Assembly (NCBI RefSeq): GCF_900176005.1
Contig: NZ_LT838272.1
Location: 124,001 to 188,000, forward strand
DNA length: 64,000 nucleotides
Source: Thermanaeromonas toyohensis ToBE
GTDB taxonomy: Bacteria > Bacillota > DSM-521 > Neomoorellales > Neomoorellaceae
Reading direction: 5' to 3'
Under the pieces are notes generated by a model. The model saw only the letters and a list, made by a program, of their open reading frames with translations. It had not been told where the DNA came from and did not search any database. The position numbers were made by a program, and so were the translations under genes. Positions 45,769 through 51,570 of this stretch are shown piece after piece; the stretch's first letter is position 1; every line of letters starts with the position of its first letter.

Positions 45769-46908
45769 TTACTTTTTCTCCAGCCAGAGCATTATTACCT
45801 GCTCGCCTGCTTCCTTATCTAATATGCTAAGCTGCTTTTCCAGGAATTCGGCTTGGCTGATAAGCTCTTCCCGCTCTTTTTCTGTGGAAGCTGCATTGGC
45901 TTTGGCTACCGCTTCACGGTACTGCTCTAAAGTGGCGCTAAAACGGGCAGTAATATCCTCGCTTTCTTCGCGCTTATCTAACAAGGTGCCAAGTTTTGAA
46001 AGACTTTCTACTAAGCTGGAAGCTTTTTGCGGTGTTACGGTGAACCTTATGCCTGCTCGTACACTATTTCCTGTATTCTGCACCGCGACAATCTCGAAGG
46101 CAGCTCCCACCCCCGTCCCTGCCTTAAGGGCCGCGGCCAGTGCCTTTTCCATATCGTCTGCTGCCACTTTAAGGAAGGTACTATTTATCTTGCGCTCTTT
46201 ATTTAAGAAGGTGACCGGTAAAAGATTCTGGCCTTGAGCTACTGCCTGGGGCTCAGGAGGAGTACCCTGCCTTGACGGGCCAGGCTTTAGACCAGGAGAA
46301 GAACTTCTCTCTTCCGGCCCAGGAACACTCTCTCTTCCCTTATCCTCCCCCAGAGAGAACTTTTCCCTATTTTCTTTGGGTAGGGACTGCGCTTTTTCCC
46401 CGGGCGCTTTGTAATCCTGGTCACCTTTGGAATCTACCACGCCAGATGGTGTGGTATTTCCTTCTTGCTCCTTAAAGGATATCCCGCTGTTAAGATCCGG
46501 TTTTGGGCCGCTCGCTTCCGACTCTACTTGCCCTACCTGGGGCAGGGGGTTTAAGGCTGCCAGTATCTTGGCGGGAACCCAGCCCCGGGCTGCGTAAGCT
46601 AGGGAGCTCCCTGCTAGGGTTAGGGCCACGCCTGCAGCAGCGACCCATCTCTTCCACCCAGAGAGATAAGGACGGTGGCCTTCTATTTCCTTAAGCCGTG
46701 CCATTACCCCTGCCACCAGCCCAGCTGGAGCTAGAGGAGTGAAGCCTGGGAGGGAACGCAAAGCCTCTAGAAGGGTTTTAAGCCCAGTAAGCTCCTCATA
46801 GCAGGCAGGACATAAGCCTACATGGGCTAAAACTTCAGCCTCTTCTTTAGGGCTTAAGTAATTATCAAGATGTAGGGAGAAAAGCCTCCTTGCTTCCTGG
46901 CAGTTCAT
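45769..46908 (-). CDS. Zinc-finger anti-sigma factor fused to an extracytoplasmic DUF4349-like domain
   Basis: The 379-residue protein begins with a ZAS anti-sigma domain (MNCQEARRLFSLHLD, HVGLCPACYEEL: HxxxCxxC). One membrane segment follows (about 88-107), then a low-complexity linker (about 120-225) and a C-terminal domain (about 232-379). That domain has STFLKVAADDMEKAL, EDITARFSATLEQYREAV and a coiled coil, resembling DUF4349. It should hold the ECF sigma factor at the membrane until an envelope signal triggers release, typically by regulated proteolysis. It lies downstream of the sigma gene in the same operon. Confidence 0.85.
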   Translation of the reverse strand: MNCQEARRLFSLHLDNYLSPKEEAEVLAHVGLCPACYEELTGLKTLLEALRSLPGFTPLAPAGLVAGVMARLKEIEGHRPYLSGWKRWVAAAGVALTLAGSSLAYAARGWVPAKILAALNPLPQVGQVESEASGPKPDLNSGISFKEQEGNTTPSGVVDSKGDQDYKAPGEKAQSLPKENREKFSLGEDKGRESVPGPEERSSSPGLKPGPSRQGTPPEPQAVAQGQNLLPVTFLNKERKINSTFLKVAADDMEKALAAALKAGTGVGAAFEIVAVQNTGNSVRAGIRFTVTPQKASSLVESLSKLGTLLDKREESEDITARFSATLEQYREAVAKANAASTEKEREELISQAEFLEKQLSILDKEAGEQVIMLWLEKK

Positions 46909-47018: not shown

Positions 47019-47654
47019 TTAAGGCCGGGTGTATCCCTCGCCCGGACTTCTTTTTACAGCGACCTTCCCCGCCTTACCCTCTTTTAGCTTTGAGGCTCCT
47101 TCCCCTTCCAGTTCAGCTACCTTCTCCTTCAGAGCCTGGCGGGCCCTGTTTAGCCTAGATTTAACTGTGCCCAGGGAACACCCCAAAACCTTGGCTATGT
47201 CCTCGTAGTTTAACCCCTGGAACTCCCTTAGCACCAGCACTGCGCGGTACTCGGGAGGTAGGTTTTCCAGGGCTTGTCGTATGTAACGCTGCTTTTCCTT
47301 TTCGGCCAGGACTTCCTGGGGGTCAGATCCTGTAGCTGCTAGATCCCGGCTGACCTCCCCCTCCTCCGTGAGGAGCGGTTCATCCAGGGAATAAGCTATA
47401 TTGTCTTTTTTATTTTTGCGCCGGGAATTAAGGTATACATTAACCGTTATACGGTGTAACCATGTGCCTAGATCAGCTTCAAACCGGAATTTCTCTAGGT
47501 TAAGGTAAGCTCGTACAAATACCTCCTGGGCCAAGTCCTGGGCGTCGGCGTGATTACCGGTTAGCTGGTAACTAAGAGCGTATACTTTATCCTGGTAAGC
47601 TATCACTATCTTTTCAAATTCTTTTTTCTTATCACCAAGGATCAAGCCCAACAC
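47019..47654 (-). CDS. ECF-family RNA polymerase sigma factor (SigW-like)
   Basis: The 211-residue protein has region 2 (about 12-80; FEKIVIAYQDKVYALSYQLTGN, AQDLAQEVFVRAY, TWLHRITVNVYLN) and region 4 (about 125-180; LENLPPEYRAVLVLREFQGLNYEDIAKVLGC, split by its HTH), plus a lysine-rich tail. It would direct transcription of an envelope-related regulon. GTG start. A promoter with GGGAACTTTT and GTCTAA lies 34 bases upstream on the same strand, identical in its elements to one before the divergent surface-protein gene. Confidence 0.93.
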   Translation of the reverse strand: MLGLILGDKKKEFEKIVIAYQDKVYALSYQLTGNHADAQDLAQEVFVRAYLNLEKFRFEADLGTWLHRITVNVYLNSRRKNKKDNIAYSLDEPLLTEEGEVSRDLAATGSDPQEVLAEKEKQRYIRQALENLPPEYRAVLVLREFQGLNYEDIAKVLGCSLGTVKSRLNRARQALKEKVAELEGEGASKLKEGKAGKVAVKRSPGEGYTRP

Positions 47655-47687
47655 CCCTGGAGGCCCGGAAAATCCCCGGACACTTAT

Positions 47688-47717
47688 TTAGACAAGAAAA
47701 CAGGCACAAAAGTTCCC
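47688..47717 (-). promoter_or_regulatory. ECF-type promoter of the sigma/anti-sigma operon
   Basis: On the minus strand GGGAACTTTT (47717-47708) and GTCTAA (47693-47688); 16 bases separate GAACTT and GTCTAA. This resembles known ECF promoters (-35 GAAC-type) and suggests autoregulation. Confidence 0.75.
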
Positions 47718-47846
47718 GAACCATGTACCTAAAAAGAAAAATATTTTGCATAAGTGTGCATCAAGCGGGCGTTGCATATTTTACATGGATATTCTATTGG
47801 TATGATAGCAAAAATCGCCACCTACCGATACTCCCTTTTTACACTA

Positions 47847-47872
47847 AGAGACCTCTATAAGAGACCTCTATG
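47847..47872 (+). repeat. Tandem 13-bp repeat
   Basis: TAAGAGACCTCTA occurs twice without gap (47847-47859, 47860-47872) in the gap between the sigma gene and the surface-protein gene. Role unknown. Confidence 0.6.
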
Positions 47873-47920
47873 TTAAGAAGCGATTTTTCCCTCCTTTAAC
47901 CTTAAAAAAATTTTTGGCCT

Positions 47921-47950
47921 GGGAACTTTTTAGCCCTTACCGGTGTCTAA
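47921..47950 (+). promoter_or_regulatory. ECF-type promoter of the S-layer-like gene
   Basis: GGGAACTTTT (47921-47930) and GTCTAA (47945-47950), again with 16 bases between GAACTT and GTCTAA. The elements are identical to the sigma operon promoter. Transcription would give a leader of about 200 bases. Confidence 0.75.
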
Positions 47951-48160
47951 TAAAATAGGTTCGCAAGGTAAAGGAAGCCAGCTCAAGTAGGGGGCTGGTA
48001 GAAAAGCTATTTCTTGCCTGGCTCTAACAGGCGGGAGACTGAAAAACCATAGAATAAGGAGGGAGGGCTCTGGTAAGATAGGTGCGCCAGGCCAAAAAGA
48101 GCAAGGATCACCTCTAAAATTAAGCGCTATAAAATACTTTGGAATTAGGAGGGGAAAGGT
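47951..48160 (+). promoter_or_regulatory. Long structured leader of the S-layer-like mRNA
   Basis: About 200 bases separate the ECF promoter from the TTG start. They contain hairpins such as CCAGC/GCTGG (around 47981-48000) and GCCTG/CAGGC (around 48017-48033). Long leaders that stabilise message are common for S-layer genes. No known riboswitch was recognised. Confidence 0.45.
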
Positions 48161-50278
48161 TTGAGGAGAATACGGAGGAAGTGGCTCTCTATACTGCTAA
48201 CGCTAGCCTTGCTAGTTGGCTTGATGGTACCCTTTGCCGGGTCAGCGGTGGCAGAAACAACTTATGTAAATTTTAGTGGAGCATATTCTTACGTTACTTC
48301 AACAGGTGACAACAAAGCTGTCACGGGGTATGTATATCTTACAGAGAAGCTTTCTGGAGCCATTGGTGCTACTACCTATGTTACTTTGACATTGCCGGAT
48401 GGCGTAGAATATATGGCTGCACCTTCGACAACAACCAATTACGTTTATCAAGGAGATGGAATTACGGCTCCCAACGCTACCTTGTTAGGAGGCACGACAA
48501 AAGAAATTGATTTAAAGTGGGATAGCGCTACTGGCGGTTTGAAGTTTGTATTTAATGCTTCTAATTACTCGGCCTTGAAGATTGCCTCTACCTTTAGTGG
48601 TGATCTTAATGTTTCTGTGCGAGTATGGAGAGTTGATAATAACGGTGCGGTCCTGTGGGATGAAAGCAGCAATGTTACTATTGCTAAAGTAATTGCTGGG
48701 AAAGTTAGCGTTACAGCAGCTTCTCCTACCAATGTATATGTTGGTACGAATCAGACTGCCGCTACTATAACTATCCAAGAAAATGTTCCGGGTACTGTGA
48801 GTGGAGATGTATACGTAACGTTGTTAACTTCGGATGTAACTTTTGGAGACACAACTGGTATATTATCGAATGTAGGAATTAATGCAAATGTTGCTGGTAC
48901 CTCTACCTCTACTAAATTAGTCATTAATACTACTCCTTCTTCAGGTATCGCAGGGAAATTAACAATTACACCTAAACTCAATATTCCACCCACAGTATCT
49001 GGTGACATCCAGGTTAAAGTTTCGGGCAGCAACACCAATATTCCTGAGACCACCCTTACCATTGCTAAAGTGGCTCAAGGCGCAGTAACAGTTTCTGCCC
49101 TTAACAACAGTGACCAGATTGTATATCAAGGTCAAAGCGCTACTTTAACCACTGATCTTAGCATTAAGCCGCAAACAGGGGCTGTTTTGCCACAAAATAG
49201 CTATATTACTTTGCAGCTACCTGAGGGAGCAAAGTGGAACTTCACTTGGAGTGCTGATAGTACACCGTTTGTTGACACAAATGGCGGAACTGTAAACGGA
49301 GTGGTCTATAAAGGCGTTTATAATAGCGGCCGGAGCATATGGTTTATTGTAAATACTACTGTATCTAGCGAGATCCAGCTTCGCGATCTCCAGGTTATTG
49401 TGTCTCCCACCTTCCCGGTAGGTGACCTGGTGGTTACTGTTGGGGGCAATGCTGGTGTAAGCGGTAGTGTTACCATTGCCCAGGTCAAGGCTCCCTTCAC
49501 CGTAACTGCTAGTAAGCCTGAAATTAAGCCCGTTGGTGGTAAGCAGGCTGCTGGTAATATTGTGATTACTGAAGCTGCTGCCGGAGTGCTAAAGGTGGGT
49601 AAGAATATAACCTTATCGCTGCCTTATGGAGTAAGCTTCAACGGGACACCTACCGCAACTGTCAAGAGCGGAAACATTGGTCTAGGTTCTGTTGATCTGA
49701 AAGATAACGTAGTTACTATACCTGTAACCACAGCAAGTACTACTGCTAGCACTATCGAGATCTCTGGCATTTACTACGACACTGATAATCGTGCTGCTCT
49801 GGGCGATGTCGTAGTAACCATTGGCGGTACAATAAACGAGTATAATAGCGATCCCGTGGCCAAGATTGCTAACGCTGTTATCGTCTCCCCCACCAAGCGG
49901 GTTGCCGTCTTCACCCTGGGCAGCAACGTCTACACGGTGAACGGAACCCAGTACACCATGGATGTGGCCGCTTATACGAAGGACGGCCGGACCTACCTGC
50001 CCGTCCGGTATGTGGCCTACGCCCTGGGTGTGGATCCTGCTAACGTGCTGTGGGACGATGCTACCCAGACGGTGACCCTGATTAAGGGCACCAATGTGGT
50101 GCAGCTCACCATCGGTAGCAAGGTGCTGAAGCTTAACGGCATCAGCATCAATATGGATGTGGCTCCCGAGCTGGTGAGCGGCCGGACCATGCTACCCTTC
50201 AGGTTCATCGCCCAGGCTCTGGGTGCTACCGTGAGTTATGACGAGGCTACCCAGACCGTAACGATGAACCTCGAATAA
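48161..50278 (+). CDS. S-layer-like surface protein with C-terminal copper-amine-oxidase-type domain
   Basis: The 705-residue exported protein has a strong signal peptide (RRIRRK, hydrophobic core, cleavage after AVA31). Three to four beta-sandwich repeats of about 130 residues follow, each ending in an ITIAKV-like strand (near residues 170, 304, 440 and 565). A C-terminal CuAO_N1-type domain (about 585-705; VNGTQYTMDVAAYTKDGRTYLPVRYVA in parts, MLPFRFIAQALGA) closes it. There is no SLH or LPXTG motif, so the C-terminal domain probably does the anchoring. It is Thr/Val/Ser-rich with codon use unlike the sigma gene, typical for an abundant surface protein. TTG start with AGGAGGGGAAAGG before it; an ECF promoter and a long leader lie upstream. 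Confidence 0.85.
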   Translation: MRRIRRKWLSILLTLALLVGLMVPFAGSAVAETTYVNFSGAYSYVTSTGDNKAVTGYVYLTEKLSGAIGATTYVTLTLPDGVEYMAAPSTTTNYVYQGDGITAPNATLLGGTTKEIDLKWDSATGGLKFVFNASNYSALKIASTFSGDLNVSVRVWRVDNNGAVLWDESSNVTIAKVIAGKVSVTAASPTNVYVGTNQTAATITIQENVPGTVSGDVYVTLLTSDVTFGDTTGILSNVGINANVAGTSTSTKLVINTTPSSGIAGKLTITPKLNIPPTVSGDIQVKVSGSNTNIPETTLTIAKVAQGAVTVSALNNSDQIVYQGQSATLTTDLSIKPQTGAVLPQNSYITLQLPEGAKWNFTWSADSTPFVDTNGGTVNGVVYKGVYNSGRSIWFIVNTTVSSEIQLRDLQVIVSPTFPVGDLVVTVGGNAGVSGSVTIAQVKAPFTVTASKPEIKPVGGKQAAGNIVITEAAAGVLKVGKNITLSLPYGVSFNGTPTATVKSGNIGLGSVDLKDNVVTIPVTTASTTASTIEISGIYYDTDNRAALGDVVVTIGGTINEYNSDPVAKIANAVIVSPTKRVAVFTLGSNVYTVNGTQYTMDVAAYTKDGRTYLPVRYVAYALGVDPANVLWDDATQTVTLIKGTNVVQLTIGSKVLKLNGISINMDVAPELVSGRTMLPFRFIAQALGATVSYDEATQTVTMNLE

Positions 50279-50292
50279 GGGTTGGCCTTCAG

Positions 50293-50330
50293 GGCCCGGG
50301 TTCCTAGCGGACCCGGGCCTTATTATCTTT
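50293..50330 (+). terminator. Terminator of the S-layer-like gene
   Basis: GGCCCGGGT / ACCCGGGCC perfect nine-bp stem with a nine-base loop, followed by TTATTATCTTT. Confidence 0.8.
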
Positions 50331-50364
50331 ATGTTAGCGCAAGGGCTTACCTGGAAGCGGGGTG

Positions 50365-51570
50365 ATGAAGTTGGTAAGGAAGGTGTATAAATCCCTAGAG
50401 GCTAGACGGGTGTTCCCGCTGGAAGTTCCACTAGCGGAGATATTGCTGGCCATTTTAATGTTTTTTGTAGGCTGGATAGGCTGGGCCGGGGTGAGCTATG
50501 GGGATGAGGCGGTGCCAGAGACTTTAAGCCTGGAGGATGCTGTCCACCTGGCGCTTCTTTCTAGTAAGGAAGTGCAGGTGGCGAGGGAGACTGTTGAGCT
50601 TAAAAAAACAATTAAAGATGAGACTTGGGATAAATATAATGCGGTGCTTATTCGCACGCATATACCAGGCACCGATATGTATGTGAGCCTGCCTACAGGC
50701 CAGGATCCTACCGGTATGGTCTTTAAGACCGACTACGACTGGAGGAAAGCGGAAAGAGATTACGAGGTTAAGGTGGCTTCTGTGGTAGCTAGCGTGTACC
50801 AAAAATATTCTGCTGCTGTGCTCGCCCAGAAGCAGGTAGAGGTGGCTAAGCTTAATGTGGCCCTTAAGGAGAGGGAACTGGCGGATGCCGAGGCCCGGTT
50901 TAAGGTGGGAGCGGAAAGTGCTTTAGTTGTAGCCCAGAAGCGAGCAAGCCTGGCTAGCGCTCGTTCGGAACTAGCCCAGGCGGAAGGCAGGTTAAATAAG
51001 GCCTATGCTGATCTAGTGGAACTGGTAGGGCTTCCGCGCGGTAGTAAGCCTGCCCTTGTTAGCCAAGTGGACTTTGCGCCCTTAAAGGTGGAAGACCTGG
51101 ATAAAGAAATTGAGACGATAATAGAAGCCAGCCCGCAAGTGTGGACTGCCCAAGAAACAGTGAAATTGCAGAAGAATACTTACGGGATGGTGAACTCTTA
51201 CGATGTAGATAAGATAAACCTAAAGCTTGCAGAAATAGGAGTAGACATCACCCGCCAGCAGCTTTACTTAGCACTGCTTCAGCTTTATAACAATGTGAAG
51301 GCTTTAGAAGAAAATTACGAGGCCCTACAACAATCCTTAACCACAGCCCAAGAGGGTCTTCGCATAGCTAGATTAAAATATGAGCTAGGTATGGCTACCC
51401 GAGCAGAAGTGTTGAGCGCTGAAGCAAGCGTGGTTTCTTTGCTGACCCAATTAGAGAATGTAAAATGGCAGCACGCTATGGCGGTTAGGGCTTTTTATGA
51501 ACCATGGGCTTGGTCGGGTGGCGGCATAGGGGGTGCAAGTTCTACTAGTGGCCAGGGAGGAGGAAGCTAG
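50365..51570 (+). CDS. TolC-family (outer membrane efflux-like) protein
   Basis: The 401-residue protein has an N-terminal membrane segment or signal (about 24-48) and a long alpha-helical body. It shows TolC-type repeats: LSLEDAVHLALLSSKEVQVA at the start, AEARFKVGAESALVVAQKRASLASARSEL and ARLKYELGMATRAEVLSAEASV in the two half-repeats (conserved G-x-x-x-x-x-x-V/A motifs). The tail is Gly/Ser-rich. TolC forms outer-membrane channels in diderms; this organism appears monoderm by its other genes. It directly precedes MacA/MacB genes, so it likely belongs to that export system. ATG 50365; a GTG lies just before it. Confidence 0.82.
   Translation: MKLVRKVYKSLEARRVFPLEVPLAEILLAILMFFVGWIGWAGVSYGDEAVPETLSLEDAVHLALLSSKEVQVARETVELKKTIKDETWDKYNAVLIRTHIPGTDMYVSLPTGQDPTGMVFKTDYDWRKAERDYEVKVASVVASVYQKYSAAVLAQKQVEVAKLNVALKERELADAEARFKVGAESALVVAQKRASLASARSELAQAEGRLNKAYADLVELVGLPRGSKPALVSQVDFAPLKVEDLDKEIETIIEASPQVWTAQETVKLQKNTYGMVNSYDVDKINLKLAEIGVDITRQQLYLALLQLYNNVKALEENYEALQQSLTTAQEGLRIARLKYELGMATRAEVLSAEASVVSLLTQLENVKWQHAMAVRAFYEPWAWSGGGIGGASSTSGQGGGS

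Follow-up and report, generated by a model that had tools for sequence, protein, structure and literature searches.

The window, a stretch of 64,000 nucleotides from Thermanaeromonas toyohensis ToBE, carries a divergent region with a regulatory operon on one side and a gene for a secreted surface protein on the other. On the minus strand lies the gene for an ECF sigma factor of 211 amino acids (47019 to 47654), followed downstream on the same strand by the gene for an anti-sigma factor of 379 amino acids (45769 to 46908), an arrangement that is kept in relatives. The sigma factor has only sigma regions 2 and 4 (PF04542 at residues 18 to 83 and PF08281 at residues 123 to 175), joined by a short linker, and it scores above the NCBIfam TIGR02937 cut-off; these features and the adjoining cognate anti-sigma gene are those of an ECF (group IV) factor. 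Its relatives of solved structure are SigW and RpoE, with 2h27 and 1or7 among the nearest and SigW (5wuq) the closest over the whole protein. Its scores against the NCBIfam SigW model (140 bits versus a cut-off of 209) and the RpoE model (129.7 bits versus 236) both fall short. This sigma factor would work like sigma-E yet lies outside the named RpoE and SigW families. The anti-sigma factor has a zf-HC2 domain (PF13490, 30.7 bits versus a cut-off of 22.2) with the Hx3Cx2C arrangement, in which HVGLCPAC at residue 29 provides the HxxxCxxC zinc motif; a single hydrophobic stretch at residues 89 to 107, of moderate mean hydropathy (1.57); and a weak DUF4349-like C-terminal domain, for which the match to PF14257 is below the cut-off.

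On the plus strand, the surface protein (48161 to 50278, 705 amino acids) has a signal peptide, beta-rich repeats and two C-terminal CuAO-N1 domains (PF07833). A sequence-only reading of this locus had called the protein S-layer-like. SLH domains are absent from it, and the two PF07833 domains are its only Pfam matches above cut-off, as is also the case in relatives. Given a pTM of 0.43 for the AlphaFold2 model (pLDDT 79), we claim no fold. A PDB search with the model returned generic beta-sandwich matches (TM 0.12 to 0.22 by query length), which we rejected as a fold assignment.

Behind the surface gene lies a TolC/OEP-family gene (50362 to 51570, plus strand), recognized by PF02321 and synteny. 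Between the two sits a terminator-like hairpin (50291 to 50321, plus strand), a stem of 13 pairs with a T-rich tail behind it, which is a consensus match only; based on its sequence and position, it may limit read-through into the OEP gene and is a possible attenuator. An OEP-family gene is found 3' of the surface gene in all relatives for which downstream DNA was read, including G035, and in G048 and G089 (L203 and L205) the OEP product carries a fused CuAO-N1 domain. In a single AlphaFold2 prediction (pLDDT 83), the OEP protein consists of long helices with only very short strands, and short loops take the place of the barrel strands of TolC; the best PDB matches of the model are of the TolC type (TM of about 0.6). 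Judging from this model, the product seems to be a TolC-like partner without a beta-barrel. We found no Omp85/BamA protein in the genome by a search that was positive in seven control genomes; the absence of this one family does not prove a monoderm envelope.

A matched pair of predicted promoters

The divergent region holds two copies of one element, GGGAACTTTT-N14-GTCTAA, with 16 bases between GAACTT and GTCTAA. The predicted promoter of the sigma/anti-sigma operon (47688 to 47717, minus strand) has its -35 box GGGAACTTTT at 47708 to 47717 and its -10 box GTCTAA at 47688 to 47693, 33 bp upstream of the sigma open reading frame as called. The predicted promoter of the surface-protein gene (47921 to 47950, plus strand) has the same boxes at 47921 to 47930 and 47945 to 47950, 210 bp upstream of the TTG start of that gene. 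Both are exact matches, so the two identical elements, one per strand, that the sequence-only reading had described are indeed there. Translation of the sigma gene may in fact begin at a TTG that lies a few codons into the frame as called. A short hairpin, CCGGG...CCCGG, follows the -10 box of the sigma gene (47655 to 47687, minus strand) and is present in most relatives. Just 5' of the surface-gene -35 box lies an A/T tract (47904 to 47915, plus strand) that is kept in a 15-promoter alignment and resembles an UP element, and it would presumably act as one.

The -35 box GGAACTTTT is the sigma-E motif quoted in PMC1804206. ECF factors regulate themselves through promoters that have AAC in the -35 box, and such an element is present and conserved before this sigma gene. 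According to PMC3397946, E. coli sigma-E reads GGAACTT by means of R171, S172 and R176. In our sigma factor, the region-4 residues aligned to these three are K, S and R, so that Ser172 and Arg176 are kept and Arg171 is replaced by Lys; the homology of region 4 to sigma-E is supported by the matches to 2h27 and 1or7. The alignment was guided by what we take to be the region-4 segment of E. coli sigma-E.

How much weight can two identical sites bear? In the whole 3.33-Mb genome the element has exactly two exact matches, both at the divergent region and before the two genes. Shuffled window sequences give no match to it, and base composition predicts about 0.0015 sites per genome on both strands. 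The reversed pattern, used as a control, also matches exactly once in this genome, a point in favor of chance; thus, a single lone match of the element would prove little. That the likeness of the two sites is accidental, or that one promoter was recently duplicated on the spot, is in our estimation scarcely credible: spacers and flanks differ between the two sites, and the pair recurs across several families, with the excess over controls given below. When up to three mismatches are allowed, the whole genome yields 41 matches to the element and 41 to the control, and relaxed spacing (GGAACTT-N14-19-GTCTAA) adds no sites genome-wide to the same two. A wider regulon with the full element is therefore not visible, and the visible regulon consists of two sites.

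The element and the leader RNA in relatives

Relatives were searched in two ways, with the sigma protein and with the promoter element, the reversed pattern again serving as the control. The class scan returned 28 exact sites in 22 genomes versus 1 control site. By our annotation, half of the 28 lie before a sigma gene and 11 before a surface gene; the other three comprise one before an SLH protein gene, one before an anti-sigma gene and one without assignment. Across the phylum (398 genomes), we counted 89 exact sites in 58 genomes versus 3 control sites, and this excess speaks against a chance likeness, which the earlier reading too had called unlikely. Gene annotation covers part of the 89 sites; among 20 phylum loci inspected, several have no recognizable sigma or surface gene nearby. 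In the families examined, the sites precede the orthologues of both the sigma gene and the surface gene, whether these are linked or unlinked, and so they do not have the random placement, without enrichment before genes, that would have spoken against the proposal.

Upstream of sigma orthologues, 15 other loci carry an identical or near-identical element, and an identical or one-mismatch element lies upstream of the orthologous surface gene in 14 other genomes. In the promoter alignment, the motif columns carry about 1.9 to 2.0 bits and the flanks 0.4 to 1.1 bits. In other families too, sigma and surface genes form divergent pairs in which each side has the element (G035, G080, G228, G319, G339 and G118). 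Elsewhere the two sites lie apart, by 6.7 kb (G012), 18.6 kb (G007), 24 kb (G008) or 0.55 Mb (G011), and in G089 a single contig has one of them at 0.197 Mb and the other at 2.83 Mb. The strongest point for the proposed wiring, as read from these genomes, is that the element accompanies the genes when they separate.

Could the element instead be an operator for a DNA-binding regulator? Paired identical elements that flank a divergent region are a layout common for regulator sites too. We nonetheless regard this reading as very improbable, because the two boxes keep a constant arrangement and lie, for either gene, on its coding strand, the -35 box matches that of sigma-E, the -10 box is invariant, unlinked surface genes retain the element in unchanged orientation, and a paralogous module in the same genome (see below) has different boxes in the same layout. 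The elements are better seen as promoters.

Two further arrangements were observed. In G339 and G080 the surface gene is preceded by two copies of the promoter in tandem (L196:4295 and 4471; L197:3978 and 4154). In L121, L138 and L210 the sigma gene carries the element at its end, immediately 5' of the anti-sigma gene, where, based on its position, it is apparently an internal promoter.

The surface gene would be transcribed with a long 5' leader. In the window, this leader is about 200 nt (47957 to 48160, plus strand) and has a hairpin near its predicted 5' end; in all relatives read, it is about 190 to 330 nt. In genus g7 and in G002, the 5' part of the leader is a conserved structured element that directly follows the -10 box; over several families, this element is placed at L144:7490-7566 and at 12 further loci. 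A model built from 11 leader sequences finds, in a scan of the family, one copy per genome and only at this leader, and it recovers held-out leaders from another family in G089 (E of 5.6e-5) and, weakly, in G048 (E of 0.015). An extended model finds the element in a third family (G265 and G288), directly behind a one-mismatch promoter and before the surface gene; two weaker matches, in G126 and G063, are not tied to such a promoter. In the alignment, 92% of cells are paired and 4 pairs have double changes, and the covariation score is 0.193 versus 0.129 in shuffles, for an alignment that had been fitted to the structure. These pair counts modestly support a leader structure. Rfam holds no credible match to it, and no known riboswitch or RNA family was found there. 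Because the model does not detect the window's own leader, we claim the leader RNA for relatives only; the window merely has a similar hairpin.

An orphan sigma factor and a second module

A second sigma factor, 88% identical to the first, is encoded at 1.596 Mb (L066:5988-6620; G000:C1:1595990-1596616). At this locus we found no anti-sigma gene nearby and no promoter element, and homology to the first locus stops just upstream of the start. The reading frame is intact, and a dN/dS of about 0.14 indicates that this orphan copy appears to be under purifying selection. Genes for a TraG/VirD4-type coupling protein and an Eco57I-type methylase lie nearby; the presence of such conjugation-type and methylase genes suggests that the orphan copy lies in a mobile element. 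One might therefore argue that the promoters are real and are read mainly by another sigma factor, either this orphan or another ECF factor, and that the local sigma factor is not the principal regulator. The orphan could read the same promoters and, lacking an anti-sigma gene nearby and a promoter of this type, could act freely, and another ECF factor might conceivably be the one that uses the motif beside the sigma gene. We consider this quite unlikely, though less so than the operator reading. In most relatives there is a single close copy of the sigma gene (two in G008), and the motif is nonetheless retained upstream of the sigma and surface genes, and the orphan is probably a derived duplicate of the same specificity, which would add to local control rather than replace it.

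The same genome holds a second sigma/anti-sigma/surface module at 209 to 214 kb (L067:4985-9560; G000:C1 about 208981-213560), whose sigma factor is 41% and whose surface protein 33% identical to its counterpart in the first. Near-identical elements, GCGAAACTTT-N11-TTCGTNATTATTAC, precede its sigma gene and its surface gene, and the pair GCGAAACTTT-N11-TTCGTNATT has exactly two exact matches in the genome. In relatives of this module, its motif lies before the orthologue of either the sigma or the anti-sigma gene. That both paralogous modules have a matched pair of their own would be difficult to account for if each sigma factor did not read its own pair, and we infer that the two are insulated from one another. 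We tentatively speculate further, at somewhat less than even odds, that these are two insulated modules that share an ancestor but now differ in their promoter codes (GGGAACTTTT/GTCTAA versus GCGAAACTTT/TTCGT), that each sigma factor drives no surface protein but its own, which would let the cell pick between alternative surface coats, and that in relatives the first type is tuned further by an undescribed leader RNA.

A proposed switch and its known counterparts

In total, the observations outlined above make it highly likely, as far as genome comparison can speak to function, that the locus encodes a dedicated switch, made up of an ECF sigma factor and its anti-sigma factor and minimal in its regulon, in which the sigma factor drives its own operon and the divergent surface gene. 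Control of itself and of a surface protein is what the sequence-only reading had put forward, and it gains support from the enrichment of the element, from the positions of orthologues even when these are unlinked and from the paralogous pair; the terms S-layer-like, major and envelope stress in that reading have weaker backing than this wiring. We infer that the elements are promoters read by the local sigma factor, and the signal and the output are deduced in the same way. In this model, the putative membrane anti-sigma factor would, as in its family, use a cytoplasmic zinc-finger domain to hold the sigma factor until an extracytoplasmic signal releases the sigma factor from the membrane. 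Free sigma factor would then direct RNA polymerase to the two identical sigma-E-type promoters. Its own promoter would provide positive feedback as well as more anti-sigma factor; the promoter of the surface gene, with its A/T tract and long leader, would give strong transcription of that gene, and some read-through into the TolC-like gene is likely. The locus is thus very probably a small dedicated switch for cell-surface remodeling.

How does this compare with known circuits? With the sigma-E (RpoE)-RseA system of E. coli and Salmonella it shares the -35 box (PMC1804206), a similar -10 box, an ECF-type sigma factor and, both predicted here, an autoregulated promoter and a membrane anti-sigma factor. 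It differs in its very small visible regulon, in its target, a secreted CuAO-domain protein, and in its anti-sigma factor, which, unlike RseA, has a zf-HC2 and a weak DUF4349-like domain. With no Omp85/BamA detected in the genome, nothing here points to a conventional outer-membrane stress circuit, unlike in the sigma-E system. SigW-RsiW of Bacillus subtilis and other ECF/ZAS pairs of Firmicutes have zinc-finger membrane anti-sigma factors and autoregulation, and SigW is, as noted, the nearest full-length structure. The SigW regulon is large, whereas only two sites are visible here, and the -35 box of SigW promoters, with TGAAAC (PMC8103513), is closer to that of the second module than to that of the first. 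An excerpt of PMC3397946 describes RpoE1 of Thermoanaerobacter tengcongensis, which transcribes its own gene and, like our sigma factor, has an anti-sigma gene downstream, encoding the single-transmembrane TolB; the -35 box differs (tGTTAC), and that excerpt reports no paired divergent surface gene. Our search of the open-access literature found no description of the sigma/surface pairing. Circuits of this kind are known; in the literature covered, neither the present member nor its fixed target across the phylum nor the paralogue with the altered code appears to have been described.

Such exact, two-site wiring of a sigma factor to its target across a phylum makes for an unusually clean case of an ECF regulon in nature, and together with the paralogue and its altered promoter code it forms a natural pair in which the divergence of sigma specificity can be studied. 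The analysis further brings to light, in a bacterium in which no Omp85 was found, a candidate leader RNA and a TolC-like partner that is apparently barrel-less. It also assigns a regulator to a widespread, uncharacterized class of secreted CuAO-N1-domain proteins.
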